Under the pieces are notes generated by a model, which worked only from the letters and a program-made list of their open reading frames with translations, ran no database searches and had not been told where the DNA came from. Of a DNA stretch of 64,000 nucleotides, positions 11,553 through 63,344 are shown in pieces. Position numbers and translations under genes: made by a program. This DNA comes from Cladocopium goreaui (Eukaryota > Sar > Dinophyceae > Suessiales > Symbiodiniaceae): contig CAMXCT020001112.1 of the NCBI GenBank assembly GCA_947184155.2, positions 2,172,501 through 2,236,500 of the forward strand. Reading direction: 5' to 3'. The number at the start of each line of letters is the position of its first letter. The stretch's first letter is position 1.

Positions 11553-11658
11553 TACCCTCTGGTAAACTAACATAGCTATTGAACATTGTCATTTATAGTG
11601 AGTTTTCCCATGAACAAATGTGATTTTCCATAGTCATGTAACAGTTTACCAGAGGGTA
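11553..11658. mobile_element. Family A element
   Basis: TACCCTCTGGTAAACTAACA at left and AGTTTACCAGAGGGTA at right, with a core of GTGAGTTTTCCC. Confidence 0.8.
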
Positions 11659-11801
11659 TGTTATAATGGGACATTGTGGTCATAAATGAATCCTGGATTG
11701 GATAGGCTCTGGAAGGCCCGGAAGGAACCCAGGCCCAGGTTTGAGCAAAGTGAAACCCCGGTTGGAAACGTTGTAAACGATTAAAAGGATATTGATATTA
11801 T

Positions 11802-19557: not shown

Positions 19558-20615
19558 ATACATACATACACACATACATATACATACATATACATACACA
19601 TACATTTACATACACATACATACACATACATACACATACATACACATACATACACATACACATACATACGCATACATACACATACATACACATACATACA
19701 TACATACACACACACATACATACATACATTCATACATTCGTACATTCGTACATTCATACACTACATAAAGACATACAGGCATACAGACAGACATGCATAC
19801 ACACATGACATACATACATACATACAGACATACATACATACATACATAACTACATAACATACATACATACAGACATACAGACATACAGGCAAACATACAT
19901 ACACACATTACATACATACATACATACAAACATACATACATACATGCATACATACATACATACAGTACAGTACAGTACAGTACAGTACAGTACAGTACAG
20001 TACATTACATTACATTCCATACATACACGCACATACATACACATACATACACATACACATACATACACAGACATACACATACATACACATACATACACAT
20101 ACATGCACATACATACACAGACATACACAGACATACACAGACATACACAGACATACACGTACATACACGTACATACACATACATACATACACATACATAC
20201 ATACACGTACATACATACACGTACATACACATTCATACACATTCATACACATACATACACATACATACACATACATACATATACATATACATACACATAC
20301 ATACATATACACACATACATACACATACATACACATACATACACATACATACATACACATACATATACATACACATGTATACACATGCATACACATGCAT
20401 ACACATGCATACACATGCATACACATACATACACATACAGACACATACATACACATACAGACACATACATACACATACACATACACAAACATAAATACAC
20501 ATACATACATGCATGCATGCATACATACACATACATACATACATACGTACGTACATACATACATACATACAATCTACATACATACACACATACATATATA
20601 TATATATATATTGCT
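19558..20615. repeat. (CATA)n / (CACATA)n satellite, right block
   Basis: Same satellite continued beyond the family C insertion. Includes a (CAGTA)n run at 19961-20002, CATGCATACA units at about 20370-20420 and a terminal TATA run. Confidence 0.95.
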
Positions 20616-25065: not shown

Positions 25066-25170
25066 TACCCTCTGGTTATTTAACATAGCCATGGAAAATC
25101 ACCATTTTTAATAGATAAACCACCTATAAATAGGCCATTTTCCATGGCTATGTTAAATAACCAGAGGGTA
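25066..25170. mobile_element. Family A element, perfect arms
   Basis: The cleanest copy: TACCCTCTGGTTATTTAACA pairs without mismatch with TGTTAAATAACCAGAGGGTA, and the arms continue through the ATAGCCATGGAAAAT block. Probably a recent insertion. Confidence 0.9.
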
Positions 25171-39032: not shown

Positions 39033-39116
39033 ACTTGTAGTACTTGTAGGACTTGTAGGACTTGTATTACTTGTAGTACTTGTAGTGCTTGTAGTACTTG
39101 TAGTACTTGTAGCAGC
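39033..39116. repeat. 9-bp ACTTGTAGT array
   Basis: About nine ACTTGTAGT/ACTTGTAGG units. Confidence 0.9.
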
Positions 39117-42900: not shown

Positions 42901-45900
42901 GGGGATCTTTGATTGGTTTCTACAGGATGTCTATGGGATTTCTATGGGGTAACTATTGGTGATTGCACCTTGTGATTTGATGGGATTTGAATGGATTTGA
43001 AGGGGATTCAATGGTGATTTGATGGGGATTGAATGTGGGTATTGAATGTGGATTTCATGGTGATTTAATGGGGATGAAAAATTGGATATACTACCGGACA
43101 TGAATGGAATAGTCGTTTATACCACTTTGTTTACCAATGGAATAACGCCCCAAAAGAGATGGATTTGTTAGAATTTGAACACTATGGGGCCATGGGGTTT
43201 ACTCTCCGGTGTCAAACGTGACTAGCTGGGAAATTCCCTAACCAAGTTGGAGGTTTATAGCTGGGAAAATCATCGAACTCAGTAACTAGATGGGTGATTT
43301 TCCGGAAAAAACACGTTTGATTACTGCTTTTTAATGGAGATTTACTATGACCATGTTCAACTTATCAGATGGGGTCTTGTTTATCCCAAAACAGCTCCAA
43401 CGGGGTATTTGTCCCAGGTTTAACTACTCCGATGGGTCTTGACATTGTGGGTTTGAACATGTTTGAACAAATGCTGCTGGGATGGGGGTTATCATGGATT
43501 ATCCCTGACAATTACCTGAAATCACGGGAAAACTGGGGAGCTATAGCAGCTATAGGATGCTATAGGCATGCCTGAAATGGGGCCATCGCTACAGCGCGGA
43601 CTATGTGAACCGCCTGATGGCCTCCGCCCGTCGTCACTTGCCATCCGCGCACCTCGCTGAAGCGCAGTTCGTCTGCTTCACCGAGGATCCCAACGGCATC
43701 GATGAGTTTATAGAGACCAGGAGACGGGTGGTTGAGCCATGTGTTCTTTTTCCCATTTTTTTCCCATTTTGATCATTGATCAGAATTTCTTTGGAACAAC
43801 TTGACCTCAAAGTCATTTTAACATATTTTAACTATAAATCTTATAACATCTTATTACCTTATAACACTTTCATAACAGATGCTTTTCTCCACTTTGATCT
43901 TGTTTTTTGGTGGTATGGATCCTGGGATGAGGAGCCTACCGGACGGCTTCCACTTGTGGTGGGGGAAAGCCTTCCTCTTCAGCGCCGAGGCCACTCCGAA
44001 AAACACAAACGGAGATGGCGATGGAGAGAGAGAAACCAAAACAACTGGGATTCCAGTTTAACACATGTCCAAATATCATATATTACAGTAATAGTAATAA
44101 TTGATATATCTAATTATATATATATACAGTATTATATATAATATATATACAGTATTATGTGTGTATATATATACCCAGTATTATGTATATATATACCCAG
44201 TATTATGTATATATATATATATAAATTATAAGTATTTATCGCATACTATGTTACTAAACTTTATACTGTGCATCAATTCGCCAATCCACTGGATATCCAA
44301 ACCAGGCCGGTTTGGACGGCCATCGCGTTCTCTTCTTAGACTTGGATCAAGTGATCGTTGGCAGTTTGGAGCCGCTGCTGGCGTACCGAGGGCCCTTTGC
44401 AGTGCTGCACACGGTGCCCCGAAGCATTTTTTGGGGGTCTTAGCAGCAAAAATGGTGATAGTTCTAGGGATTTAACCATGAAGATAGGGACTGAACCATC
44501 AAACATGTGGATTTTTAACATTGAAAATTGGGATGTAACTTGATGTAACCAACAAAATATCCAGAAAAAAATGGATCTAACCAGCACAAGTACTGATTCA
44601 ACATGATTGACGCGCTGGATCCTGGAAATGGAATTCGAGGATTCAGCATGATTTAGCAATCCTTTTGGTGTTTCTGATGTGTTCCTGACTTTTGTTCAAA
44701 GTGGGAGGTGGTATGGCAATTTCCTGTTGTCTTCGATATTTGGGATTGGTATGTCAATGAGCCAGCAGCGGTTTGGTCTTCTGTGGCTTGGAATCGTGCG
44801 GGTACCACGTCTTTTGTTTCCCAGATGGCTACTGAAAGTTGAAAACTACTGGGATCATGTTTGTTACTTTTCATGATAATCTCCCTCTCCCTGAAATCCA
44901 GTGAGCAGGCGTTTCTTGTGTTGGAACACGTCCATCCGTCCATTCGGATGGTGAAGAGCTGGTTTCCTAATGATTTTAAGGTCCTAATGCTTGACTGGTT
45001 GGTGGTTTGGAACATGTTTTATTTTCCCATTCAGTTGGGAATGTCGTGATCCCAACTGACGAAATCATATTTTTTCAGAAGGGGTTCAAACCACCAACCA
45101 GTTGATATATTCTAGGTTATTCTAAGTGTAAATTTGGACTCTGGACGAAAAAAAACATCCATCAAGATCCATGAAGCTGAGTGGTTTATCATGATCCTTC
45201 TATACATGGCAAACTCAGTATTTTTGGATCTAAATATTTATCTAAATCAAACCGGGGATGGCCTTTTTTTTAAACGGCTTTGGGACATTTCCGACTTGGA
45301 GATTGCCTTGGATCAATCCATGAATGAATCTCAAAACAGCTGATGATGTATATATAGACTTGAAACTGCAATTTTTAGGGTGCACGAGTACGCTCACCAT
45401 TTGTGATGGTTTTAAATTCCATGTTTTTCAGCTTCAACTTCATGATAGTAAAAGTCACCACATGCTCAGAATTTGAAGAAGTTCAATAAGATTTTTACTT
45501 GCAATTTTCAAAGGTACACTCACCATTTGTGATAGTTCAATCCCACTTTTTGCAGCTGAAACTTTATATATGACTCTGAAATAATTGAATTTTCATCATG
45601 CTTGATTTTCATTTTGTTTCTTTGAAAAGGATCACCATCAAGTTGATCATTTTATCTGGATTTCCCCCGTTTTTTCCGCCGAGCTGCTCGAGCGGCTCGC
45701 GCAGGATGACATCGCCTGTGAGTTGGCCCCCGGGGGCTACAACTCCTCGGTGCTCTCCTGGCGCGGCGCGGAGGTTTTGCGGCCGCTCTTCGAGGCCTTG
45801 ACGCCTGCGGTGCTTCGAGACATGGCGGCACCGGTGGATCTGGACCCTGGCAGCCCTTGGAGCTATGAAAACTACCCCGGTTGACTGCTAACGGATTATA

Positions 45901-47359
45901 TATACCATCTACTTATATAACATAGCCATGGAAAATCACCATTTTTAATAGGTAAACCATCTATAAATGGGCCATTTTCCATGGCTATGTTAAATAACCA
46001 GAGGGTAGCTGGTTTAATATGATCTAATGAATCTAATGGGATAGAATTGTTCATGGCTCATTTAAACAAAATTAAAGCCGTGTCTATTCTGTATATTGGA
46101 AAAAACATATGAGTTATAATACATTATCAGCCACCTTTATCCATTTATCATCTATTTGTTCTCGTATCAAAAAGATAGTAGTTTACCCCAGTCTTAATTG
46201 AATTTTACTTGTCGGTTTCTTTTGGGGTTGCTACAAAAGGATAAAGATCGATATATATATATATACTGTATATATGTGTGTTTTTTCAAAGCCATCTGTA
46301 AACTGAACTGTGTGTTTCTGTTTCCGCCGATAGAGCTTGGATGGTTTCATTATACCAATAGCCTCAGCGGACCCCAAAACAATTGGTCTTTACACATAAC
46401 TGTGCGATTTGTTCACGTATTTATGGGCCAAATGGGGATTAAGATGATTAAGCTTTGTATGAGTGAGATTTAAGCAATGAATATGTCATGGACATTGTTT
46501 TTGTTTTTCTTTGAATTGGTTTGATGTATGTTGATGGGTTTTCATGGGCCGCTCTCCACCAGTAGATTGGCCATGCCCTGACTTACCAGGCTGTCTATCG
46601 ACTGTCAGTCTCTGAGTTTGGCTTATTTTCACATCAGCAGTGACCAAGAAACATTGTCTGGGAGGTTGGTTGTGCCACCTTTCAGCCTTCGTATTCCTTT
46701 TGTATGTAATAATTCTAGTTTTATAATATGTCATGCAACCTTTAGAAGTTGCATAAGATTCGCCCTTTCATCCTTTGGGAATTGCGCCAGTCGTTCTTTG
46801 CGCCGGTCGGATCACATGACTTCACATATATGTTGTGTTTGGTTTATTCCGGTGACGAACATGCATGCCCCAATAGATCACGTTTGCCTGTTTGCACCTT
46901 CCTCTCAGTTCTCCTTAGTTCTCCCTTTCTTGGAATGTTAGCAAAGCAATAGTAAAGCATCCCCAATTTTACCATTTTCATGGGTGGTATATATAAACCA
47001 TCAATCCATATGGCTGGTTTATTACATCTTACCGCCCCAACATTCTTTTATTTTCAGGATATGTCCATCGTTTCGACCATTGGTTGGAGATGATGTTGGG
47101 CACTACCGCAGACGTTTGGCAGCAGCTGGCACCGGGCGCCGTGGTCGACTACACCACCGTCTTCCGTGGCGGCCGCTGTCTGGGCTGCGACGACGACGGC
47201 GACGACGGCGCCTTCGCTGCCGGGGAGGACAACGGAACGGCCACGGCAACAGAGGTCGCGCTGCCGGCGGCGGCGGCGGTGGTGACGTTTCCCAGGAGTC
47301 CCAAACCGCATGAGGTGCTGGAGAAACACCAGTGGATCAGGGAACATTGGAGATGTTGA
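39886..47359 (+). CDS. Gene 1: TPR-repeat glycosyltransferase, multi-exon (5' end not found)
   Basis: Inferred exons: 39886-39962, 40512-40674, 41665-41755, 42429-42573, 43566-43720, 43932-43989, 44306-44413, 45684-45879 and 47058-47359 (TGA stop). All joins keep phase. The first four exons encode TPR repeats with canonical spacing (for example GKYDRAE then EHFGQSLALLP, and GRFDEAERNCREALRLEP). The rest encode a nucleotide-sugar glycosyltransferase of a type I recall from bacteria: CLKWGHRYSADYVNRL, FVCFTEDPNGID, LPDGFHLWWGKAFLFSAE, then VLFLDLDQVIVGSLEPLL with the DxD-type metal/nucleotide site, GGYNSSVLSW, RFDHWLEMML, and a C-terminal PKPHEV / W.REHW. TPRs usually bind a partner protein, so a protein or complex-bound acceptor is possible; donor and acceptor sugars are unknown. 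The upstream start, and any leader, were not found. Donors are GA, GC, GA, GT, GA, GC, GT, GT in order. Domain call is firm; exact boundaries are less so. Confidence 0.75.
40512..40674 (+). CDS. Gene 1 exon: TPR units
   Basis: GC-rich island in AT-rich DNA. Encodes EHFGQSLALLPSARAHFG, then CLAALRRREEALEELSEAV and AIINLAG, with TPR spacing. Acceptor CCAAG|GAG. The inferred donor is GC (GCAG|GCCTGG), chosen because it gives the correct 11-residue NL-to-GR spacing into the next exon. A GT donor 6 bp further on would shorten the repeat. Confidence 0.65.
40719..40865. mobile_element. Family E palindromic element
   Basis: TGTCAACCCCGGATTAATAA at left and TTATTAATCCGGGGTTGA at right, followed by a duplicated CCCGGGGTTGACA. 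Lies in the gene 1 intron, 45 bp after the donor at 40675. Confidence 0.75.
41665..41755 (+). CDS. Gene 1 exon: TPR unit
   Basis: Encodes QLGLGRFDEAERNCREALR followed by LEPESREAVM, a textbook TPR helix B. Acceptor GTGAG|GC. The donor is inferred as GA (GGTGAT|GACGCC), because this alone gives seven residues between the TPR proline and the following NL and matches the 3' phase. Confidence 0.65.
41939..42036. mobile_element. Family B element in gene 1 intron
   Basis: CTGGTCGGTGGTTTGGAACA to GCCAACAAGCAG; internal CCCAACTGACTAATATTTTT then CAGAGGGGT. Lies between exons 41665-41755 and 42429-42573. Confidence 0.8.
42429..42573 (+). CDS. Gene 1 exon: last TPR and linker
   Basis: Acceptor CGCCCAG|G. 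Encodes NLANAMRNLGRRREAVELVW and then a helical linker ending VAQETVKTEKL. The donor is GT (AAGCTG|GTGATT), phase 0, feeding directly into the conserved ACLKWG start of the glycosyltransferase domain. Confidence 0.65.
42625..42770. repeat. TATTAATTGAATTA minisatellite in gene 1 intron
   Basis: Alternating units ATCCATATATTAATTGAATT and ATCGTATTAATTGAATT, about seven copies. Confidence 0.85.
43212..43320. mobile_element. Family D element in gene 1 intron
   Basis: Begins TCAAACGTGACTAGCTGGGA, ends ACACGTTTGA; the interior AAATCATCGAACT block matches the palindrome at 32347-32482. Confidence 0.55.
43566..43720 (+). CDS. Gene 1 exon: glycosyltransferase N-terminus
   Basis: Acceptor CTATAG|GCATGC. 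Encodes ACLKWGHRYSADYVNRLMAS and later AEAQFVCFTEDPNGIDEF. The KWG..Y...YVN motif and the FVCFTEDP strand are the hallmarks of this bacterial-type family. The donor is inferred as GA (ACCAG|GAGACG), the only choice found that fits the next exon's phase. Confidence 0.7.
43932..43989 (+). CDS. Gene 1 exon: glycosyltransferase WW segment
   Basis: A short exon of 58 nt encoding SLPDGFHLWWGKAFLFSAE, the proline- and tryptophan-rich segment that precedes the DxD strand in this family. Acceptor GATGAG|GAG. GC donor (GCCGAG|GCCACT). AGGAG is repeated at both borders of the upstream intron. Confidence 0.65.
44306..44413 (+). CDS. Gene 1 exon: DxD strand
   Basis: Exactly 36 codons. Encodes GLDGHRVLFLDLDQVIVGSL, then LLAYRGPFAVLHT. 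DLD is the predicted metal-dependent nucleotide-sugar site. Acceptor AACCAG|GCC, donor GT (CACACG|GTGCCC). This is the most diagnostic exon of gene 1. Confidence 0.75.
44995..45101. mobile_element. Family B element in gene 1 intron
   Basis: CTGGTTGGTGGTTTGGAACA to ACCACCAACCAG; internal CCCAACTGACGAAATCATAT then TTTTTTCAGAAGGGG. Confidence 0.85.
45684..45879 (+). CDS. Gene 1 exon: glycosyltransferase core
   Basis: Encodes DDIACELAPGGYNSSVLSWR, with the conserved G(Y/F)NSSV segment, then a helical stretch ending SPWSYENYP. Donor GT (CCCCG|GTTGAC). A family A palindrome starts about 23 bp downstream of the donor. Confidence 0.7.
45903..46007. mobile_element. Family A element in gene 1 intron
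   Basis: Left end degraded (TACCATCTACTTATATAAC); right end TAAATAACCAGAGGGTA intact. Starts about 23 bp after the donor at 45880. Confidence 0.8.
47058..47359 (+). CDS. Gene 1 terminal exon: glycosyltransferase C-terminus
   Basis: Acceptor TTTTCAG|G. Encodes YVHRFDHWLEMMLG and APGAVVDYTT, then an acidic/alanine-rich insertion (positions about 47187-47280) absent from the bacterial proteins I remember, and the conserved end PKPHEV...W.REHWRC followed by TGA. The stop falls where the family normally ends. Confidence 0.7.
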
Positions 47360-49156: not shown

Positions 49157-49260
49157 TATCCTCTGGTGAACTAACATAGCAATGAAAAATGGCCATTTAT
49201 AGTGGATTTTCCCATTAAAAATGGTGATTTTCCATTGCTATGTTAGTTCACCAGAGGGTA
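49157..49260. mobile_element. Family A element, near-perfect arms
   Basis: TATCCTCTGGTGAACTAACA pairs with TGTTAGTTCACCAGAGGGTA. It lies about 35 bp after the putative exon donor at 49122. Confidence 0.85.
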
Positions 49261-49529
49261 TGGTGATCGATCTAAAGGTCCTTGTAAGGAGTTAAAAAAA
49301 TCCCGGATAAATGAATTTTGATCAACCAACATATAGTACTGTAATATTCAATATATAGATAATATAGATATTTCATAATTTTGTAGTGATAATAATAATG
49401 ATAATATGACAACTCTGTACATTTCTATAGTTCTTATTTTTTTTCCTGTCCTAAGTCTGAAGTCTCACTTTAATGTAACAATTCTGATTCTCCTTCCATT
49501 CGAATTTGAATCCATTCCAATTGAATTTG

Positions 49530-53680: not shown

Positions 53681-56600
53681 CCCTATCTCCCTATCTATCT
53701 GTCTGTCTATCTATCTATCTATCTATAGATAGCAGAAATCGTGCTAGATAGTGCTGGATATGTGATGAGTCAGAATCAATCAGATGCCAAGATCCCCGCG
53801 AGTTTCTTTTCATGTGCCATAATTGGGAAGAACAACTGCAGGGTCTAAATACCCTCTGGTAAATTAACATAGCTATTGAAAATGGCCATAGAAATAGTGG
53901 ATTGATTTACCCATTATGTTAGTCCATGTGGACGCAAAATTGTTTTGGAACAGGTTTAAACTTCAAGCCAATTAATCGGCCATTTCCAGTGGGCAGCTCA
54001 CAGGCTCACATCACCAGTTGCTGACTTCGTGGATCATCCAGGCATAGTTGCTCCGGATGGCTCCTCACCAGCCATTTTCGAAGATTGTTTTTGACACGAA
54101 ACCGCTTTGTGCCTTTCCAGCTGAGGAACAGAGTTGGCATCAAGTATCTTGGCATCAAAATTGTTTTCGGGGCATATGTTTTTTTTTGCAAATTGGCAGT
54201 GGCTAGTTGGCCCATTGCAAGGTTGATGGCTACTTCCGCCATGGAATCTGCATTTTCTTTTGGCTGCTTAATTGACCGGTGATACACCCATCAATACCCA
54301 TCAATCAACCAGTAGAATCAATCCGCAATGGGTGTGAGAAATTGCTTGAACTGAACAATTCCGATATCTGACGCTTTCCTGAAATCCTGAAAACCAGAAC
54401 CTTTTAATCAGAAAACAACGATTTTTATTGCCGGTTCTTCTTTTGCTCCCCCATGAGGAATACTTCTCTTGTTGTAAGCATGCACCTGCGTGTTTCAAGC
54501 TGTCCATGGGTGTATGGGTCACAGCTTCCCGAGTTTTCAGGACCACACAGGTATATTGGCCCCCAAAAAAATGCCCTTTCTTGTTTCACAAGAAAAACAG
54601 TGTTACGGATTGTTTCTGGTTCCATCATGTTCCATCCCTCATTTTGCACCCCATAAGTGGCCCCAAATCTGTGCATTGCGACATGACCAGACCATGGTTT
54701 CCGGTGCTGTCAGGGGGAAGGGATTGCTGGATCCTTGTGGGTTTTCATGTTGACCCTATGACAAGCCAAAGGCAGGTCTATGACATCAAGTATGACCCCG
54801 TGCCTTGGCGATTTGATGATGCGACTGGTGATTGGTGACTGGTGAATAGGCCATAGAAATATAGTACATGTTTATTTTTGACTGCAATGTGCCATAGAGT
54901 ACTAAAGCAAATGTGTATGAATGTATGCATAATTATGTATATAACTATATATATATATGTGTACATTAGTATGTATATATATAATATGCGTGTGTATCAT
55001 GTGTTTAAACAATATATACTTGGTATATATATATATATATACATACAGTATACATGTGTACGTGTATGTATGTATAAATATATGTGTGTTTATTTACATA
55101 TACACATATATATCTTATGTGTGTGCTATATACTTGTTGGTATTCAAAGATATGCCCAATTTTAAGCCTTGATCCTCATTTGTGCCCCTCGCAGCTCTGG
55201 CGCTGACCTTGAATATAGAAACTGTAGTTTTGATCATGTATCAAATGTATCATCGATAGGCATACTGATTCCTCTAGATCAATTCTTTACTGTAGTTACT
55301 CTCTTTGGCAGCCCTCAGGAACCAAGTGGAATAAGGGCTAGCCGATTGCTGCGCGTAGCTGTGCGGCCAAGGTCAGCCAGACCTTCTGGGATCAAGTAGG
55401 TTTACCTGCCAAGGCTGAGAAAACGTTTGTTTCTGGGCGTCGCCGCGTCGCCGCTGCGTTCTGGGGAATGGGTTGTAGATGGGGAAGCACAGGGTCAAAG
55501 GACAGGTAGATAAAAACTTCAAGATAGTTCAAGTTTGTGTAAAGTTTACAGGGGTGAATGCACATGTTCAGATTTGAATGCATCCAACTTCACATTTGGT
55601 CATGTGTATGATTAAAAATCATTGAACATCATGAAGGTCTTGGCACACCGCTGCCCGTCGCTGCCCCACACTGCAGTGCCGAGGTTTGTATCGGCGTGAA
55701 GGCGTCCAACTACTTCATGCCGCCCGAGACCTTGAGCTGCTCGGCGGCTTGCAGCGGCGGCGATGGCTGAATGTACTGGTAGATTTACAACACTAATGAG
55801 AGATGACTTATGACTTATTTAGTACTTAGATTTACTTAGTAATGAAAAGTAATGTTCGATTCATTTATAAATCTTAGTGAAAAGTAAGGATACACTCATT
55901 TTTTTGAAACTATGTCAATCCGATTGATCAAGTTTGTTGATGACATGGCCCATGTGTTCCTGTGAAGTTCAATCCCGTCACACCATTGATCAGAGGCTGG
56001 AAAGTTTCCAGATTTGTGAGCTGGTTGCCGCAAATCCTCCAGACACATGTTTCGGTGATATTTAATATATTTAAGATATTTCAATTGATGACTTGCAGTT
56101 CATCATTTTCAGTGTGCCATCCTCTTGTTTTTTTTCCAACATGGGAACATGTTTTCTGGTTTTGCTCCGTGTTTTGAATGCTATTCCCATCTTTAGTGAC
56201 TTCGAAAAGATAGAAACGTAAAATCTAACTAGAATAGTCATGATTTATAATGACTTACCCACCATTCCCACCATTTCCCACCTATTCCTTTCGTTTTTTC
56301 CCAATGGGGCTGGAAGCAGCCGATCCCGGCTAGGCGTACGCGGCCCAGGCTGCTGACTGCTGACCTGGTGGTTGTGGCTGGGAATTTCTGGGATTTGGGG
56401 TCAACAAGCAGAAATTACTATGGTTGATAGATAATAGATGGTTTTATCAATAGAAATTACATGAAATTACTGTTGTTATTTTGGGATGGTTGTGAAAGAT
56501 GATTCATATTGGTTGGTATCAATTAATTGGATGAAAAAGATGGTTAATATATGGTTAATATGATTGATAATAAACCAAATGGATTCTGAAATATACTACA

Positions 56601-59600
56601 CTACTATAGTGGCTAGTAGCACAGCAAATGTAGATGGTCAATATTAGTACTGTTCAATAGTACGGTTATTCATAGTATTGTGTTAGCAATATTTGCTTGA
56701 TACCAGCCATTGCTAGTAGTACAAGCCATCGGTTTCTTCTTGGATCAGTGGACTTTGGAAGCGTTTTAGAAGGAGAAAGATACCGAACCCCATGCCTTCC
56801 TGTAGATGTTTTCTGAAGCCACCCCAGTGATGGACATGTGTATGCTGAGTTTGCAATGTATCATGCACACACACACATGTATATATATATATATGTAGTA
56901 TTATGTATTATGATACGACATATGCATACATACATACTTTTGTAGTATATATATATTATAATATATCATATATCTCTGTGTGTGATTGTGTGTGTGCGCG
57001 TCTGTGCCAAGGTTAAAAGTTGGGGAACATGTCCATTGCTAGGACTCTTGGACCTAGCGCCAGGCGGTGGCGGCTGGATTCACTTCAATCAGAAGTTGCA
57101 GGCAGTGGATGGCAGCGATAGGGTCATGTTTTGGCAAAGCGCAGAGGAACATGGCCCCATCATGGCCCCATATATCGCAATGTGGCATTCTTTGATATTA
57201 TTTGAAGGAGTTGAGTTTCTGGATTGGAGAAACATGCACTGCATTCAACATCACACTTTGTGTTTGCATGTGATCTTGTGAAAAAACAACGCGCTTTGAT
57301 GGTTTAAGTAGGCAAAAAAGGCATCTTAAGAAAAAACATGGTGGCAATCCACATCCCCCTGAAAACAAGACATGTATAGCAGCAAAACAGTAATAATTAT
57401 AGTTACAATTCGCGATGATCTAGCTTCCAAAAGGACCCTGAAAAATAATACTAAAAACAGGACTTGGGGTGTTTGTTCATCTCGTGGATTTCTTCTCTGC
57501 TTTTGGACTTCTTCCCCTCATAGTTGCATCTCTGCTTGGATACTTTTGAACGAATACTTGCTTTCATGCCTAGCCGTGGTTATGATACTCATTTTCATCT
57601 AGACAAGTATGCCAATGCTCTATCTTTACACATTTTCACCTACATGTCAACCAATGTGGTGAAACCAATAATAAACCTATCATTTGGGGCTGGTTTATAC
57701 CACCAATTTATGGTGCTTTTGGGGATGTTTTATTCTTGGGTTGCAAACATTACCCTCCGGTAAACTAACATCGCTATTGAAAATTGCCACTTATAGTGGA
57801 TTTACCCATAAAAAATAGTGATTCTCCATGATTTTCCATAGCTATGTTAGTTTACCAGAGGGTATTTAGATCCGGCATCTGTGCCGCAGGTCACAGAGCG
57901 TCCCCGGGGTAACGACCCCATCGGAGAGCTCTGGGCCGAAGGACGAGTTTTCGCCGTGGGCGATTGCAACTATGGTTCCCCGCAACGTTGGGAATACCCT
58001 GTTGATTAATCGTTTAGCATAGCTCGGAAAGAATGGCCCAATTTATAGATGAGTTATATGAAGTTATATGAGGATTTACCTACAAAACATAGTGATTGTC
58101 CCATACATTTTGGTAATTTAACAAAATTTAATATAGCTATGAATGATCTTTAGATGGCCCATTTTCATCCATGCTATGTGAAATTGCCAGAAGCTACTGT
58201 GGTTTTATAGCTGGTGTATAGTTGTGAATCTATTGTACATACAGTTTGGGAAATATATGTATAATATTATATATATATATTTTATTGTATATGGCAAGCA
58301 ATTGTTCTTATTGCTGGCTTTAGCGACTACATGCGACTATCAACCAGCCATAATCAATATGGGTGTGTGTGTGTGTAGAGATGGGTTTCAATTGTATGTT
58401 TAAAGGGGCAACATGACTGTAAACAACCGGATTAGCTTGCAGTATACTTTAGATGGGTGCCGGCAACCTTTGATGGGCACTTTTGCAACTTATTTTTGTA
58501 TATGTTAGTGCAGATCTATGATATACATATATATAGTTATATGTATATTTATATATACACATAAACATCATAGATATATGCATGCTTACACATGCCACCC
58601 AGCCAAAAAGCACATTTTGTGCAGAGTACTGGTATCGATGGGTGATGATCGGGATTTCTTTACGCTACTGTGATCTCCGATGCTACCTGCTGAGGTTGCA
58701 TCGGAAACCCTCCCGACTGGATCATGGCGCCAGTGCCCAAGGTGCGGGGCACCGCTTATGGACCTTCCTGCTTTGAGACTGTTGTGGCAAGCTGCTCAAG
58801 AACAAGAGCTAGAAAGCTGTGCCACCCCAGATATGTTGGTTCATTGTTGTTTATTATTCATATTTATTCATATACTATATTATTATACCTACATTATACC
58901 TACTACCATAAGCATCCATAATCCAAACCCTCGGTAAGCTGTGTTAAGCTATATAGCTATGAAGAATAACAAACTTGGCAAAGTATGGGCCATCATGATA
59001 TGCAATGACCCATGCCATCCGCAGGTCTCCTTCCCTAGCGAAGAGCAAGCGGCGCACGCTTGCAGCAACTTGCGGACGATGACCAGCGGAAGCCCAAAGG
59101 ACGCACGACGCGAGTGCAGCCGATGGCGGCCATGGCGAAATGCCTGGCCGCTGTTTGATATATCATAACTTCCAAAGTTTGTGAAAAACTTATGATTTCA
59201 ATTCCACTTAGACCGCACTTTCAACTATATATATATATAACGTTCATAATTAACTATATATAGTTTCCAAGATAGCTCAAGAGTTCGATTATTTTTTTAG
59301 CCCCTTATTGCCCAAAACAGGGTGCTCTGTGGGTACCATTGGGTACCCAAAACCCTCAGGAGCTCAAAGATACCTACTGGCCCTGGGGTGCAGGCATGTT
59401 TGCCACCAGCCTTGGTCCTCGTAGCTTGGGATGATTTTGATGGGAATAGAATGGGAACATCGTTGCGGGAAACAAAACATGTTTTTGTTCATGAAAAGAT
59501 GATGTGCCCATCAAAAGAAGATAGTGCGTCACACCAATTTTGATGATTTTGTGAAAAAATGGAAGTGGATTGGGATGGTGAAACTGTTTGTGTCTATGGT

Positions 59601-61415
59601 TCACAGTGATTGGCACCATTTTGGAGTAGGATTCCTCAGCAAATGAGCCACAGTTTTGGGTTGGTTTTACCTATCATTTCCTATAAATGTATACAGTAAA
59701 TGTCCTGCATTTGACGTAGTTTCACCATTTGCAACATATTTTCCATTAAAGCATGGTGTAGGCCTAATTGTTGGGCACCATCTTTCTATAGGTATAATGT
59801 TTATCCCATTGGTTTTCGTAACAGTTGAATGAACAACCTACTCGTAACCAAACTACCAATCATGTCATGGCGATTTGAGGTGATGCGTGTTTCGTGGCGG
59901 GCGCCAACCATCAGAAAGGCTCTGGCTACATGGTGAATTGGTTCCTTGGCGGTGAGACTTTTGGGAAAGCGAAGTGTCGCCCTGCACCATAGTGGACCAT
60001 AGCAGCATGATGATGTGCCAAGTAATCAAGAATGTGGACACCTAATGCCGACACCTTGCATCCTGCCAAGCAGTAGAAGGAAACCAGTTTTGTGTTAATT
60101 GTTGGGGCTGAAACCAGGACTGACTTTCATCCCAGGTGGCTTCCTGCAGCCTGGCAGAAAGAACTCATTGAAAGGACTGGATCAGATCCATGGAATTTCT
60201 GGATGGTTGGCCGAAGGTACAGTATTTTAATTTTTGCATTTTTTGATGCTGTTTTCTGTTGAACATGGGACTTTCTAGGCACTACAACACCTGTATTTTC
60301 CACTTTGCGGCAGGATTTGCCAACGTGGATACGTTGACCTAATGCCCTTGCGCCGTTTTGCGACGCCAGGACGAAAATCATGGAATGCCCCTTGATTGGA
60401 TTGGCGCTACCAGTGTTTATGGTTGGTAAATAGGATCACTTCATTTTACGTGTTGCAGGTGATACTGTCGCATGATGCACTCATGGTTGGGCACTGTTGA
60501 GTTGTAATTGCAGATGACATTAGATAATTTTGATAAGTTGGAATTGTGAATGATGATCGTAGGTGATCGTCACAGTGTGACTTTTGAATACTTTTCTGTT
60601 TTCAGCTGAAGGTGCGTAGTGAACATGTTCGCATGGCGTAACTGCCAGCTTCAAAAAGCTCCCAAGGCCGTGATAACACCATCGGACGGGCAGCATTTTT
60701 GGCCGCAGAGCGGGGCTGTTGGTATGGGATTATCAGGCTGAAGCTAAGGCAACTCCATCCCCCGGGACATGAATCCCTACACATGGGGCACCAAAGGAAC
60801 ATTAAACATTTGGTGTAGTGGCGATGTTTATCTCACTGGTTCCCTTGGAAGTTTTCCGGGGTTTGCCCAGCATGTTTCAACCTTTCAGCAATCATCCCAG
60901 TTCGATTGTTCGGGCGTTTGAACCCGAGTCCTGCTTGCACTCTTGATAGAGCCCAAGCCTAAGTCAGATTCCATTTTGATTCATTTGGTAGAGCAACTGA
61001 GTCCAAAATTGGTAATTAATTTCAGGCCACATCCAAGCTAATGGTCAAGTGGATGCAGTTGGACAGGGCTTGCTTCCGAACACATGGTGACACATGCTAT
61101 ACATGGCTCAGCATTGGCTAAAAATCCAAGATCTTGGGCGCACCTGAGCACATCCGTATCTGCCACTATGTGCTCCAATATATTAACATCCAGATATTGA
61201 TATCCCATGGTATTTCCACTATTCCATCAATATCCCACCAATATAATCAGTCAAATTTGGGTGGTACGCACACGCACACACATATACAATTATCTATATA
61301 TAGTGTATATAACCCAATGATTTGCGGCTTATTTGTTTTATCCATTGATCGATGGCATCCTCCCGTGGCTTCCCAGGTTTGGCACTTCGTGCACCACCGA
61401 CCCTTCCTTCAGTAG
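49876..61415 (+). CDS. Gene 2: NAD(P)/FAD-dependent oxidoreductase (NDH-2-like), multi-exon
   Basis: Inferred exons: 49876-50002, 50489-50553, 51704-51782, 52442-52456, 52853-52920, 54126-54143, 54772-54799, 55372-55428, 55684-55756, 57064-57104, 57890-57974, 58695-58741, 59025-59099, 59360-59414, 59880-59940, 60136-about 60216, and 61377-61415 (TAG stop). The NAD(P)H Rossmann loop is [33 protein letters not shown] follows, then [18 protein letters not shown], and the second dinucleotide motif [13 protein letters not shown]-terminal motifs are [28 protein letters not shown] and WHFVHH. This is the pyridine nucleotide-disulfide / type II NADH dehydrogenase superfamily: FAD-linked oxidation of NAD(P)H, electron acceptor unknown. 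The usual N-terminal FAD-binding GxGxxG was not found. The join between the last two exons is unresolved. Confidence 0.8.
50489..50553 (+). CDS. Gene 2 exon before the Rossmann motif (tentative)
   Basis: Acceptor TTCGAG|GTG. Encodes [23 protein letters not shown] donor (GCCAG|GCTTGG) splices in phase to the Rossmann exon, giving [13 protein letters not shown]. The alternative is read-through to a TGA at about 50577, making this the end of another gene. AGGC occurs at both borders of the following intron. Confidence 0.5.
51704..51782 (+). CDS. Gene 2 exon: NAD(P)H-binding Rossmann motif
   Basis: Acceptor CTTGCAG|GCG. Encodes [20 protein letters not shown] followed by QTLGRK. The G-x-G-x-x-G and the following acidic residue are those of the pyridine nucleotide-disulfide oxidoreductase NAD(P)H domain. 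Inferred GA donor (CGAAAG|GATCCC), chosen because it joins the downstream microexon at the length I expect for the family. Confidence 0.75.
51980..52090. mobile_element. Family B element in gene 2 intron
   Basis: CTGGTTGGTTTGGAACATGA to TACCACCAACCAG, with CCCAACTCACGAACTCATAT then TTTTCAGAGGGG. Lies between exons 51704-51782 and 52442-52456. The 5' end lacks one GGTG unit. Confidence 0.8.
52442..52456 (+). CDS. Gene 2 15-nt microexon
   Basis: Five codons (LQLTI) between a pyrimidine-rich acceptor (TTTTTTCCTCAG) and a GT donor (ATC|GTCGCT). Including it gives [17 protein letters not shown], the expected beta strand after the Rossmann helix. Without it the strand would be missing. Confidence 0.55.
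52853..52920 (+). CDS. Gene 2 exon: LPRCLG segment
   Basis: Acceptor GCTGCAG|GTAG. Encodes [20 protein letters not shown] then RYM. The donor is either GA (TACAT|GAAACC), joined to 54126, or GT (GGTCGA|GTGAGT, at about 52962) joined to 54121. The first gives the more compact product expected of the family. Confidence 0.65.
53198..53310. mobile_element. Family A element beside a microsatellite
   Basis: TACCCTCTGGTTATTTAACA at left; right end TAAATAACCAGATGG runs straight into CACACA and a long (CTAT/CCAT)n array. Confidence 0.75.
53311..53728. repeat. (CTAT/CCAT/CTAC)n microsatellite in gene 2 intron
   Basis: About 420 bp of tetranucleotide repeats in blocks: CCAT, CTAT, then CTACCTAT, then CTAT. 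Within the intron between exons 52853 and 54126, bracketed by two family A copies. Confidence 0.95.
53850..53925. mobile_element. Family A left half
   Basis: TACCCTCTGGTAAATTAACA then AAAATGGCCATAGAAATAG. It lies on the far side of the CTAT array and shares the CCATAGAAATAG string with the copy at 53198-53310. Confidence 0.5.
54126..54143 (+). CDS. Gene 2 microexon (about 18 nt)
   Basis: Encodes NRVGIK when spliced. Acceptor CTGAG|G, or CCAG at 54120 if the exon starts at 54121. GT donor (ATCAA|GTATCT). The next exon then continues QVYDIKYDP, as expected for a strand in this family. Confidence 0.5.
54772..54799 (+). CDS. Gene 2 exon (28 nt)
   Basis: Acceptor CCAAAG|G. Encodes [10 protein letters not shown] together with the preceding exon. 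GT donor (GACCCC|GTGCCT), phase 0. Confidence 0.6.
55372..55428 (+). CDS. Gene 2 exon (57 nt)
   Basis: Nineteen codons: [19 protein letters not shown]. Acceptor GCCAAG|GTC, donor ACGTTT|GTTTCT. It joins to [11 protein letters not shown] without a phase break. GTTT is shared by both borders of the next intron. Confidence 0.7.
55684..55756 (+). CDS. Gene 2 exon: [11 protein letters not shown]
   Basis: Acceptor GCCGAG|GTT. Encodes [18 protein letters not shown] and a short cysteine/alanine stretch. Probable GC donor (CAGCG|GCGGCG). GGCGG is present at both ends of the following 1.3-kb intron. Confidence 0.7.
57064..57104 (+). CDS. Gene 2 exon (41 nt)
   Basis: Acceptor GCCAG|GC. Encodes [15 protein letters not shown] donor (CAGGCA|GTGGAT). 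The glycine-rich turn followed by a strand leads to the second dinucleotide-binding motif. Confidence 0.65.
57751..57864. mobile_element. Family A element in gene 2 intron
   Basis: TACCCTCCGGTAAACTAACA pairs with TGTTAGTTTACCAGAGGGTA. A short duplication of the TTTTCCAT core makes it 114 bp. It ends 25 bp before the acceptor at 57889. Confidence 0.85.
57890..57974 (+). CDS. Gene 2 exon: FAVGDC motif
   Basis: Acceptor GCCGCAG|GTC. Encodes [20 protein letters not shown] then [10 protein letters not shown](R)VFAVGD is the C-terminal FAD-contacting motif of this superfamily. GT donor (TATG|GTTCCC). A family A palindrome ends 25 bp before the acceptor. Confidence 0.75.
58695..58741 (+). CDS. Gene 2 exon (47 nt)
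   Basis: Acceptor CTGAG|GT. Encodes [15 protein letters not shown] directly after GDCNYG. GT donor (CCCAAG|GTGCGG), phase 0. Confidence 0.7.
59025..59099 (+). CDS. Gene 2 exon (75 nt)
   Basis: Acceptor CCGCAG|GTC. Encodes [17 protein letters not shown] and onward. Inferred GA donor (CCAAAG|GACGCA). It joins to [10 protein letters not shown], and AGGA is present at both intron ends. Confidence 0.65.
59360..59414 (+). CDS. Gene 2 exon: WPWGAGMF
   Basis: Acceptor CCTCAG|GAG. Encodes [21 protein letters not shown] donor (CTTG|GTCCTC) and an exact phase match to the next exon. Confidence 0.7.
59880..59940 (+). CDS. Gene 2 exon: GANHQKGSG
   Basis: Acceptor TTTGAG|GT. Encodes [20 protein letters not shown] across the two junctions. 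GT donor (AATTG|GTTCCT). The following intron is only 195 bp. Confidence 0.7.
60136..60216 (+). CDS. Gene 2 exon, 3' boundary uncertain
   Basis: Acceptor ATCCCAG|G. Encodes [14 protein letters not shown], continuing VNW. After this the frame runs on to a GT at 60217, but its phase does not match the last exon. A further microexon is therefore likely; a candidate lies just after the acceptor at about 61024 (TTTCAG|GCCACATC). Confidence 0.5.
61377..61415 (+). CDS. Gene 2 terminal exon
   Basis: Acceptor TTCCCAG|GTT. Encodes [12 protein letters not shown] and TAG. WHFVHH is, as I remember it, a C-terminal motif of the dinoflagellate members of this family. The stop overlaps a CTTCAG|TAG string that could itself be an acceptor, so the end is probable, not certain. 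Confidence 0.55.
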   Translation, partial: VWHFVHHRPFLQ

Positions 61416-61653
61416 AAAAGCACCGGCCAACCTGATGGTGACATGCCTTGTGCGACTTCGAAAACATCCAACTGGTACCACATATATATATATATATTAT
61501 AATATATATATAGCGAATCCATTTATGCAATGCAGTCTGTTTGTATGATATAGATCCACCTTCAAATTTCAGCTACGAAATGGGGAGGACTTGGGCTACA
61601 GTACAAATTGCCAGCCAGCATTTTTTTGTACAAACAGGAGGGGTTGTGCCCCC

Positions 61654-62926
61654 CATTTTGTATTTGGAATCATTTTGTAGTTGATTCCTTTCAAATCATG
61701 CATTTTCATTTTGTAGTTGTATATGTTGAGTTAGTTGAAGCATCCAACATAAAATTTCATCAGCATTTTGTAGTTGTACAAGTTGAATAGTTGAAGCATC
61801 CAACATAAAATCTCATTTGCATTTTGTAGCTGTACAGGTTGAATAGTTGAAGCATCCAACATAAAATCTCATTTGCATTCATGCTAAACATTCATTTGCA
61901 TCCAACACAAACAGATCGTGAAGCTACAGAATGCCATCTAACAAACTGCACGGGGTCAACACTTGATCCAACTAAATTCAATCATTGACAACTACAAAAT
62001 GTTCTCCGAATTTATGTTGGTCGGAACTTTGGATGGCAAAGACCCAACTACAAAATGTCATTGGGAAAAATCATGTTAGAAATTCCGACGTTCAGCTATT
62101 TTTTTGACTTCAGATGCATTGGATTTTGTAGTACTGGTTTTGAATTATTTTCCGAGCCAGAAAGAGTTATGTTCTTCATTTTGTAGCTGAAAAAAAGTAC
62201 ATGCACTTGCATTTTGTAGTTGTGCACCCTATGCATTCTGCTCTGTATCTACCAAAACCATCTGCACAACTCCTCCCCCCTTATCTGAACCCCGATTGAT
62301 ATAGAACTTGATAAAGTAAAACGTTGCAATATGTTACTGCAATGCCATTCGAAACTAGTTAGCTCGTTCCAGGATCCCCGTTTGAATTTCCACTACAGAA
62401 AGGGTGGACTTGTGATAAGTACAACCTGCTGTTTTGGGTCAATTGCAGGTTTTTAGATTGGGGTTGGTTGCCATTTTGTAGCAAACTGCACTTGGGCCAT
62501 ATCCAATTGTCATTTTGTAGTAACAGTTTTTTTTTTATTTTTGATAGTTATGTTAAAACCAAAACCCGTTTTGTAGCATTTTGGAGCTGTATGATTTGTA
62601 GTTGGTATTCCTTCTTTGTAGAAGTTGCATCTTGGATTTCAAGTTTGTAGTAAACATGCATTTATGCCGTGATGGATCGTGGCAATGTCATTTTGTAGTA
62701 ACTGAGCTTGTGTAGTGAAACTTGGGTTGGTTGCTACAAGATGGTTTGACCCGACGAGGAGGTCCTTGACTGCTGTGAGCGATCTTTACTTGACTTGAGA
62801 AGAACAATCCAATACTCATTTTGTAGCACTTGGAATCTTGAACTCTTATAGGCTTCCTCAGAAACGAATAGCCATTTTGTAGCAAAAGAAAATCTTACTT
62901 TTTGCATGAGACTATGGATTTTGTAG
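61654..62926. repeat. Cluster of the 10-mer CATTTTGTAG
   Basis: Exact plus-strand copies at 61671, 61707, 61764, 61820, 62177, 62210, 62472, 62511, 62689, 62817 and 62873; minus-strand copies at 61992 and 62048; one-mismatch variants at 61654, 62122, 62567 and 62917. The copies at 61707, 61764 and 61820 lie in a tandem repeat of 56-57 bp containing GTTGAAGCATCCAACATAAA. Starts about 240 bp after the gene 2 stop. Confidence 0.9.
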
Positions 62927-62999
62927 CCTGCTAGCTTGGGAAACTTTTCAGTACGTACAAAGAGACGGACCCAACTACATTAGGTTTATTCAAACGAGG

Positions 63000-63344
63000 A
63001 TGTTCCAGGTATTACTTTTCAACACGTTTTTTTTCATGATGGCGAAGGTCTCTATATACCACTGGCCATTTATATTTTTGCACCGCGGGATGGCATTGCA
63101 CACAGACGGCCACCGGCTGGCATTGGGAGTCCACATGTCGCATGTCCCCATCATTGGCCTGTATTGTCAGGGTCATCCAGGGTCCAATCATAAAAGAGAA
63201 GACAGCCTCAAAACGCTTCAGAGTCTAAAAAGAGAGGTTCCTTTTTTGACATACCCAAATGATGTTAGAACCTCTGTTAGAACCTCTTTGCAATTTTCGG
63301 CACAGCGACGACATCGCTCGACACAGGTCGGCATGTCGTCGTGA
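63000..63344 (+). CDS. Open frame of 114 codons, uncertain
   Basis: Contains HRGMALHTDGHRLALGVHMS and a basic C-terminal half. No domain recognised; the first 25 residues are hydrophobic/aromatic. It may be chance or part of a spliced gene. Confidence 0.2.
   Translation: MFQVLLFNTFFFMMAKVSIYHWPFIFLHRGMALHTDGHRLALGVHMSHVPIIGLYCQGHPGSNHKREDSLKTLQSLKREVPFLTYPNDVRTSVRTSLQFSAQRRHRSTQVGMSS

Follow-up and report, generated by a model that had tools for sequence, protein, structure and literature searches.

The locus analysed here raises the question of why a single 10-bp word, CATTTTGTAG, should be repeated densely in one short field of DNA downstream of a gene. The window, that is the whole 64-kb stretch of Cladocopium goreaui DNA under analysis, was scanned on both strands and 13 exact copies were found between positions 61671 and 62882, 11 on the plus strand and 2 on the minus strand. 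No exact copy was present in the window outside this interval. Chance expectation for the whole window is 0.37 copies and a count of 13 was reached in 0 of 100 shuffles. The scan thus reproduced the counts and strands given in a preliminary description of this DNA, the excess over chance and the confinement of exact matches to the field. Allowing up to one mismatch resulted in 29 matches in the window versus 7.87 expected, with 21 of these within 61573-62926 and 8 scattered over the rest. The number of one-mismatch copies inside the field is accordingly eight, and not four as had been counted earlier.

All 13 copies lie inside two elements, termed A and B, each flanked by its own target-site duplications. 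As eight copies fall within A and five within B, two separate insertions account for every one of them, and the field is almost certainly just that, namely two independent MITE-like insertions 77 bp apart. The suggestion that an ultra-short repeat is itself mobile was therefore pitched at the wrong scale, the mobile units being elements of 743 bp and 628 bp with 8-bp duplications. The features of element A and its immediate borders are as follows.

61546..61553, unstranded: left target-site duplication of A, TGATATAG
61554..62296, plus strand: element A, a 743-bp MITE-like insertion, ATCCACCTTCAAATTTCAG...CCCCTTATCTGAACCCCGAT, aligned to 13 two-ended copies elsewhere
61671..61680, plus strand: motif copy in A, exact match
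61701..61879, plus strand: tandem repeat within A, 3.2 units of 56 bp, with three exact motifs
61707..61716, plus strand: motif copy in A, exact match
61764..61773, plus strand: motif copy in A, exact match
61820..61829, plus strand: motif copy in A, exact match
61992..62001, minus strand: motif copy in A, exact match
62048..62057, minus strand: motif copy in A, exact match
62177..62186, plus strand: motif copy in A, exact match
62210..62219, plus strand: motif copy in A, exact match
62297..62304, unstranded: right target-site duplication of A, TGATATAG

The dispersal of A was evaluated in the assembly, which comprises 1.17 Gb in 6202 contigs. A 13-mer that extends the motif, CATTTTGTAGTTG, was found 442 times in forward and 448 times in reverse orientation, compared to 37 and 41 times for the reversed control word. 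Among the matches listed, many of these places cluster with a similar layout (for example + 35 + 57 + 204 - 56 - 165 + on C424) and others are single. Twenty clusters, chosen by the exact 13-mer, were retrieved for comparison and 13 of them contained a two-ended copy of A, giving 14 copies of 513-868 bp when the window copy is included. Alignment of their ends revealed sharp borders, ATCC[AT]CCTTCAAATTTCAG on the left and CTGAACCCYGAT on the right (one copy ends in C). The flanks differ from copy to copy, and each copy is bounded by directly duplicated target sequence. The duplication is a perfect 8 bp in 12 of the 14, the window copy included; in L011 it spans 9 bp and in L019 it matches at 7 of 8 positions. 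The terminal inverted repeats of A are poor, consisting of ATC plus scattered matches. The window copy carries six forward and two reverse motifs.

A genome search with A returned at least 64 matching stretches (40 scored of 234 first-look candidates). At least 15 of these span positions 1-743 among the 40 scored candidates, in which the nearest full-length copy to that of the window is 93% identical; over nearly its full length the window copy is 90-91% identical to L011, L012, L026 and L027. Pieces of L010, L014 and L017 match it at 98-99% identity, above the 90-93% of its nearest full-length copies, as if copies of A were mosaic or had exchanged sequence. Two diverged two-ended copies, L025 and L023, make up a subfamily A2 with imperfect duplications (7/8 and 6/8, respectively). 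At L015 and L018 only one end is fixed by the border words of A, and L022 and L028 provide the 5' end only. L020 was considered as a longer, autonomous form of A and ruled out, as it is a copy split by later DNA with its outer 8-bp duplication, CATTTGAG, intact.

Element B shows the same type of insertion with clear inverted ends.

62366..62373, unstranded: left target-site duplication of B, GTTCCAGG
62374..63001, plus strand: element B, a 628-bp MITE-like insertion with five exact motifs, all forward, inverted ends and a perfect duplication
62374..62387, plus strand: left terminal inverted repeat of B, ATCCCCGTTTGAAT
62472..62481, plus strand: motif copy in B, exact match
62511..62520, plus strand: motif copy in B, exact match
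62689..62698, plus strand: motif copy in B, exact match
62817..62826, plus strand: motif copy in B, exact match
62873..62882, plus strand: motif copy in B, exact match
62988..63001, minus strand: right terminal inverted repeat of B, ATTCAAACGAGGAT, 13/14 complementary
63002..63009, unstranded: right target-site duplication of B, GTTCCAGG

Searching the genome with B gave 28 matching stretches. These represent five full-length copies of 628-642 bp including that of the window, to which the other four are 91-92% identical, two internally deleted copies that account for two stretches apiece, a single isolated end and 18 stretches that cover just the first 41 bp or so. A perfect 8-bp duplication was seen in all seven two-ended copies, the window copy included, in a comparison made by eye. 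The first 54 bp of A and B are 76% identical and all remaining matches between the two are of at most 34 bp. Neither element overlaps an ORF of at least 150 aa; a 144-aa stop-to-stop frame that covers the right end of B and extends beyond it gave no Pfam match. A separate observation concerns the 18 places with the 5' end only, ten of which (L043, L044, L046, L048-L051 and L053-L055) have the left flank TTTGTAGCCTCAGT in common, implying that the 5' end is there nested in another amplified, motif-bearing repeat.

Two of the 18 stretches, on C4990 and C1351, proved to be the 5' ends of a much longer relative, element C. The two copies are 99.55% identical over 17.8 kb starting at the 5' end, and that on C1351 (L063) ends at a matching inverted end after 27,533 bp, the inverted ends agreeing at 19 of 22 positions as counted by eye. 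To the right of the C1351 copy stands ACTTATCC, identical to the 8 bp that border the C4990 copy on the left, while the left flank on C1351 is GTATACGG (flanks of L052, L063 and L045). This mismatch suggests that the assembly may have switched between near-identical copies; an 8-bp duplication of C is suggested by the same agreement between the right flank on C1351 and the left flank on C4990.

The commonest 10-mer of C is again CATTTTGTAG, which occurs 50 times, 45 of them in forward and 5 in reverse orientation, where 0.086 are expected. The 45 forward copies occur in 17 clearly different, independent contexts; three copies are spaced at 55 bp, and some lie within tandem repeats and others between open frames. 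The motifs run through the whole element, forward near both ends, and their forward sense is the direction of the frames judged to be coding. By eye, they often lie some tens of bases past an exon-like frame, and copies or pairs just after such frames were noted at 20199/20228, 20713, 21666/21696, 22171 and 23452/23481 of C. The few copies that fall inside the tails of raw open frames were taken for intron read-through.

Conservation of the motif was evaluated in the diverged copies of A by comparing motif blocks to other 10-bp blocks in a random-draw test that took in L025 and L023, with L015 and L018 left out. Against L025, the motif blocks of four A references were 97.5-98.6% identical versus 71-78% for the other blocks, a level reached in 2-6 of 20000 draws. 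Against L023 the values were 92.9% versus 75-77%, with 55-116 of 20000 draws as high. When the columns of the ascertained 13-mer were dropped, motif identity was 97.5% in L025, 87.5% in L023 and 66.5% in L018 versus 70.6% elsewhere, and pooling the three loci gave 82.0% versus 74.1%; L015 was left out of this set as it could not be trimmed. L018 accordingly shows no motif excess, and its failing motifs lie in a left part that is apparently non-homologous to A. Local alignment including L015 and L018 gave 96% versus 81% by a method that favours matching stretches, and among the 14 close copies the difference was small (98.8% versus 96.1%, permutation 0.02). In addition, CATTTTGTAG is exact in B and C although their interiors do not align with that of A. 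Motif constraint is thus shown in two diverged copies and, with the exception of L018, the earlier impression that the word is maintained holds between the subfamilies of A. The apparent constraint could in part reflect repeat homogenisation or the choice of loci by an exact 13-mer.

Element C also carries a multi-exon gene, recognised as a series of frames between 18.9 and 24.3 kb. One frame has a zinc-finger-like spacing, one contains FDATYV and CDSAGTH and one LSELSIEQHFG. Stretches of the kind FD.TYLT, D..GSH and S.EQHFG may resemble the acidic regions of P-type (DDE) transposases, which we take as a lead only. The frames gave no match beyond chance level in Pfam, NCBIfam (two frames) or PDB, and a three-sequence profile of the candidate exon gave none in PDB, single exons and a three-row profile being of low reach. 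The middle exon matches 59 genomic stretches at identities from 100% down to 22%. Two of these matches (46%), on C5926 and C3979, lie 15.9 and 15.8 kb downstream of a C-type 5' end on the same strand; both 5' ends had been found independently in the search with B and each is followed by two motif copies within 0.72 kb. These positions suggest that the C-type 5' end is linked to the candidate gene family. Two paralogs align over the whole candidate exon, leaving 67 invariant columns in the three-sequence alignment, D9, D123 and E179 among them. The multi-exon gene of C is regarded as the candidate transposase.

A further family, D (L039, L041 and L056), is approximately 460-602 bp in length, has a 5' end of the B type and 8-bp duplications in 3 of 3 copies. 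Its match to B spans about 41 bp only. No exact CATTTTGTAG occurs in family D, which instead carries an array of the variant [AC]ATTYTRTAG with the words AATTCTATAG, CATTCTATAG, CATTTTATAG and CATTCTGTAG. Judged from these words, D may have undergone a parallel change of its whole array.

Other repeats were observed in the window. A palindromic repeat of approximately 110 bp, CCCTCTGGTAAA...TTTACCAGAGGG, is present at 57753-57870, 49160-49261, 11555-11659, 25066-25168 and 45899-46005, several of the copies being near-complete, and also in 8 of the 20 retrieved motif clusters. One palindrome abuts a plausible exon near 57870 and for this reason looks like an introner or a MITE. Introner-like repeats, together with frames broken up by introns, would fit a dinoflagellate genome. 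A simple 9-bp repeat, ACTTGTAGT, forms a tandem array of 8.9 copies at 39033-39112 and has TTGTAG in common with the motif. Upstream of the field, a plus-strand multi-exon gene was delineated by eye at 54700-60393 with a stop near 60393. An identification of this gene, gene 2, as an FAD oxidoreductase, suspected by eye, was not confirmed by search.

The explanation that we consider most probable, at roughly 0.72, is that A, B and C belong to one cut-and-paste group that is characterised by an array of CATTTTGTAG and by similar 5' ends (ATCC...), the motif being a site for a mobilisation protein. C-like elements would supply the transposition proteins in trans and A and B would be their non-autonomous passengers. 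The motif would serve as a repeated recognition site for the mobilising protein, be it the transposase or an accessory factor, and non-autonomous copies that keep the array would keep being mobilised. Constraint on the motif where the elements have no coding capacity suggests that a protein provided in trans recognises the DNA. That this protein is a mobilisation protein reading the motif itself is a part of the explanation that we regard as fairly probable, and the protein-binding array, one of the options raised in the preliminary description, would be the best functional guess. Sites for a transposase or helper fit A and B. Same-sense motifs through the interior of C would fit better with an identity mark of the VANC kind or an RNA-level signal. 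A layout of 45 forward and 5 reverse copies is not the inverted arrangement expected of pure end marks.

Under an anti-silencing function of the VANC type the motif would recruit an element-encoded protein that lifts host silencing from every array-bearing copy, marking the element's identity in non-coding DNA rather than its ends. The spread of motifs over 27 kb of C, partly in tandem repeats and behind exon-like frames, is consistent with this, as is the changed array of the related family D; according to PMC5735166, the motifs of VANDAL21/VANC21 are likewise located in tandem repeats of introns and upstream regions and diverge between relatives. Pfam scans of C frames (part of C) returned no VANC-like domain, and the dense arrays kept by the short non-autonomous A and B are equally explained by mobilisation. 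We regard this function as rather unlikely. An RNA-level signal, with CAUUUUGUAG in sense transcripts helping to splice the RNAs of the element genes or to form their 3' ends, would account for the dominance of forward copies (6:2 in A, 5:0 in B and 45:5 in C) in the direction of the frames judged coding in C. As RNA the word is rich in U and has AG at its end; by eye, several copies come some tens of bases after frames. Yet non-coding A and B still keep the motif, with constraint measured for A, and the copies follow frames that a 3' splice site would precede. Furthermore, open frames were the sole basis for placing exon ends, and the TAG within the motif is a stop codon when read in one frame. 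Such a signal seems improbable on balance.

Decay of a 56-bp satellite, which would make the scattered copies remnants of tandem units, draws on six pairs of copies at 54-58 bp in A and B and on the 55-bp spacing of the three copies in C. The 56-bp tandem repeat with three motifs described earlier is indeed present at 61701-61879. Its spacer is common only to the tandem copies (z >7), whereas spacers outside the block in A and B align with the unit at z <=3.0, in agreement with the earlier statement that the flanks of the other copies are unrelated, and this origin is very unlikely. The notion that all copies are decayed units of one longer repeat thus fails for the 56-bp unit; it holds in the sense that every copy lies within a larger repeat, A or B. 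A host array for transcription-boundary formation or chromatin binding at the end of gene 2 is suggested by position, the field lying about 1.2 kb past the last plausible exon of the plus-strand gene. Against it stand the exact insertion borders with their target-site duplications and the dispersal of copies among other flanks; the field is inserted mobile DNA, the boundary element proposed earlier is without support and we consider such an array highly improbable. The motif has CATTTTG in common with the dinoflagellate spliced leader. A spliced-leader relic was ruled against, given that no leader copy occurs in the window within 5 mismatches and one occurs at 6. No Rfam match at gathering score was found in the window.

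Under the preferred reading, a puzzling group of motifs becomes a transposon system that can be tested in a large, protist-like genome. The same short word links the non-autonomous copies to a 27.5-kb element that may be autonomous and to a diverse, unclassified gene family. Should the candidate gene truly be a transposase, its family would be one named in none of the libraries searched. A broader and doubtful interpretation is an undescribed superfamily of giant, intron-rich DNA transposons whose large transposase-like gene family has no match in Pfam, NCBIfam or PDB. Their non-coding DNA, including introns, would be packed with a family-specific 10-bp word, CATTTTGTAG in A, B and C and [AC]ATTYTRTAG in D, for an element-encoded protein to read, and A and B would survive as short freeloaders because they keep the word. 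Papers containing the 10-mer were retrieved, none of which concerns this element system by title among the matches listed. Literature searches found no report on short repeat motifs of dinoflagellates and none joining the P element or THAP9 with dinoflagellates. MITE-like insertions with target-site duplications are of an ordinary kind; as far as the literature search goes, the novelty lies in the element family, its array of words and a gene family that is unassigned.

Among known systems, P elements generate 8-bp duplications, and the superfamily resembles the present elements in this respect; the candidate exons gave no Pfam or PDB match in searches of low reach. The ends of hAT elements are of the YAG/CAG type, unlike the 5' ends of A, B, C and D, which start with ATC. 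Similarity to the hAT elements Herves, Ac, Tol2 and Tag1, with their short subterminal transposase-binding motifs, lies in the 8-bp duplications and the several copies of a short motif. According to PMC3143072, both ends of Herves carry a short subterminal motif to which its transposase binds; in C, the motifs run through the whole element. The hAT dimerisation domain (PF05699) gave 11 matches in the genome, none at C or at the listed copies of A and B (part of the A copies), and none was found in the C frames scanned. A hAT partner was therefore rejected, since hAT genes are present in the genome with none linked to the listed copies of A, B or C. The VANDAL/VANC system of Arabidopsis is comparable in that its short motifs lie within introns and tandem repeats of the elements and diverge between related families (PMC5735166); the C frames scanned (part of C) gave no match to a VANC or MULE domain, and the duplication here is 8 bp. 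MITEs are close in overall form, A and B being likewise short and multi-copy with 8-bp duplications; inverted ends are clear in B and poor in A. What sets A and B apart from MITEs is that a single 10-bp motif is densely repeated in them, mostly in the same orientation, and is shared with a 27.5-kb relative.
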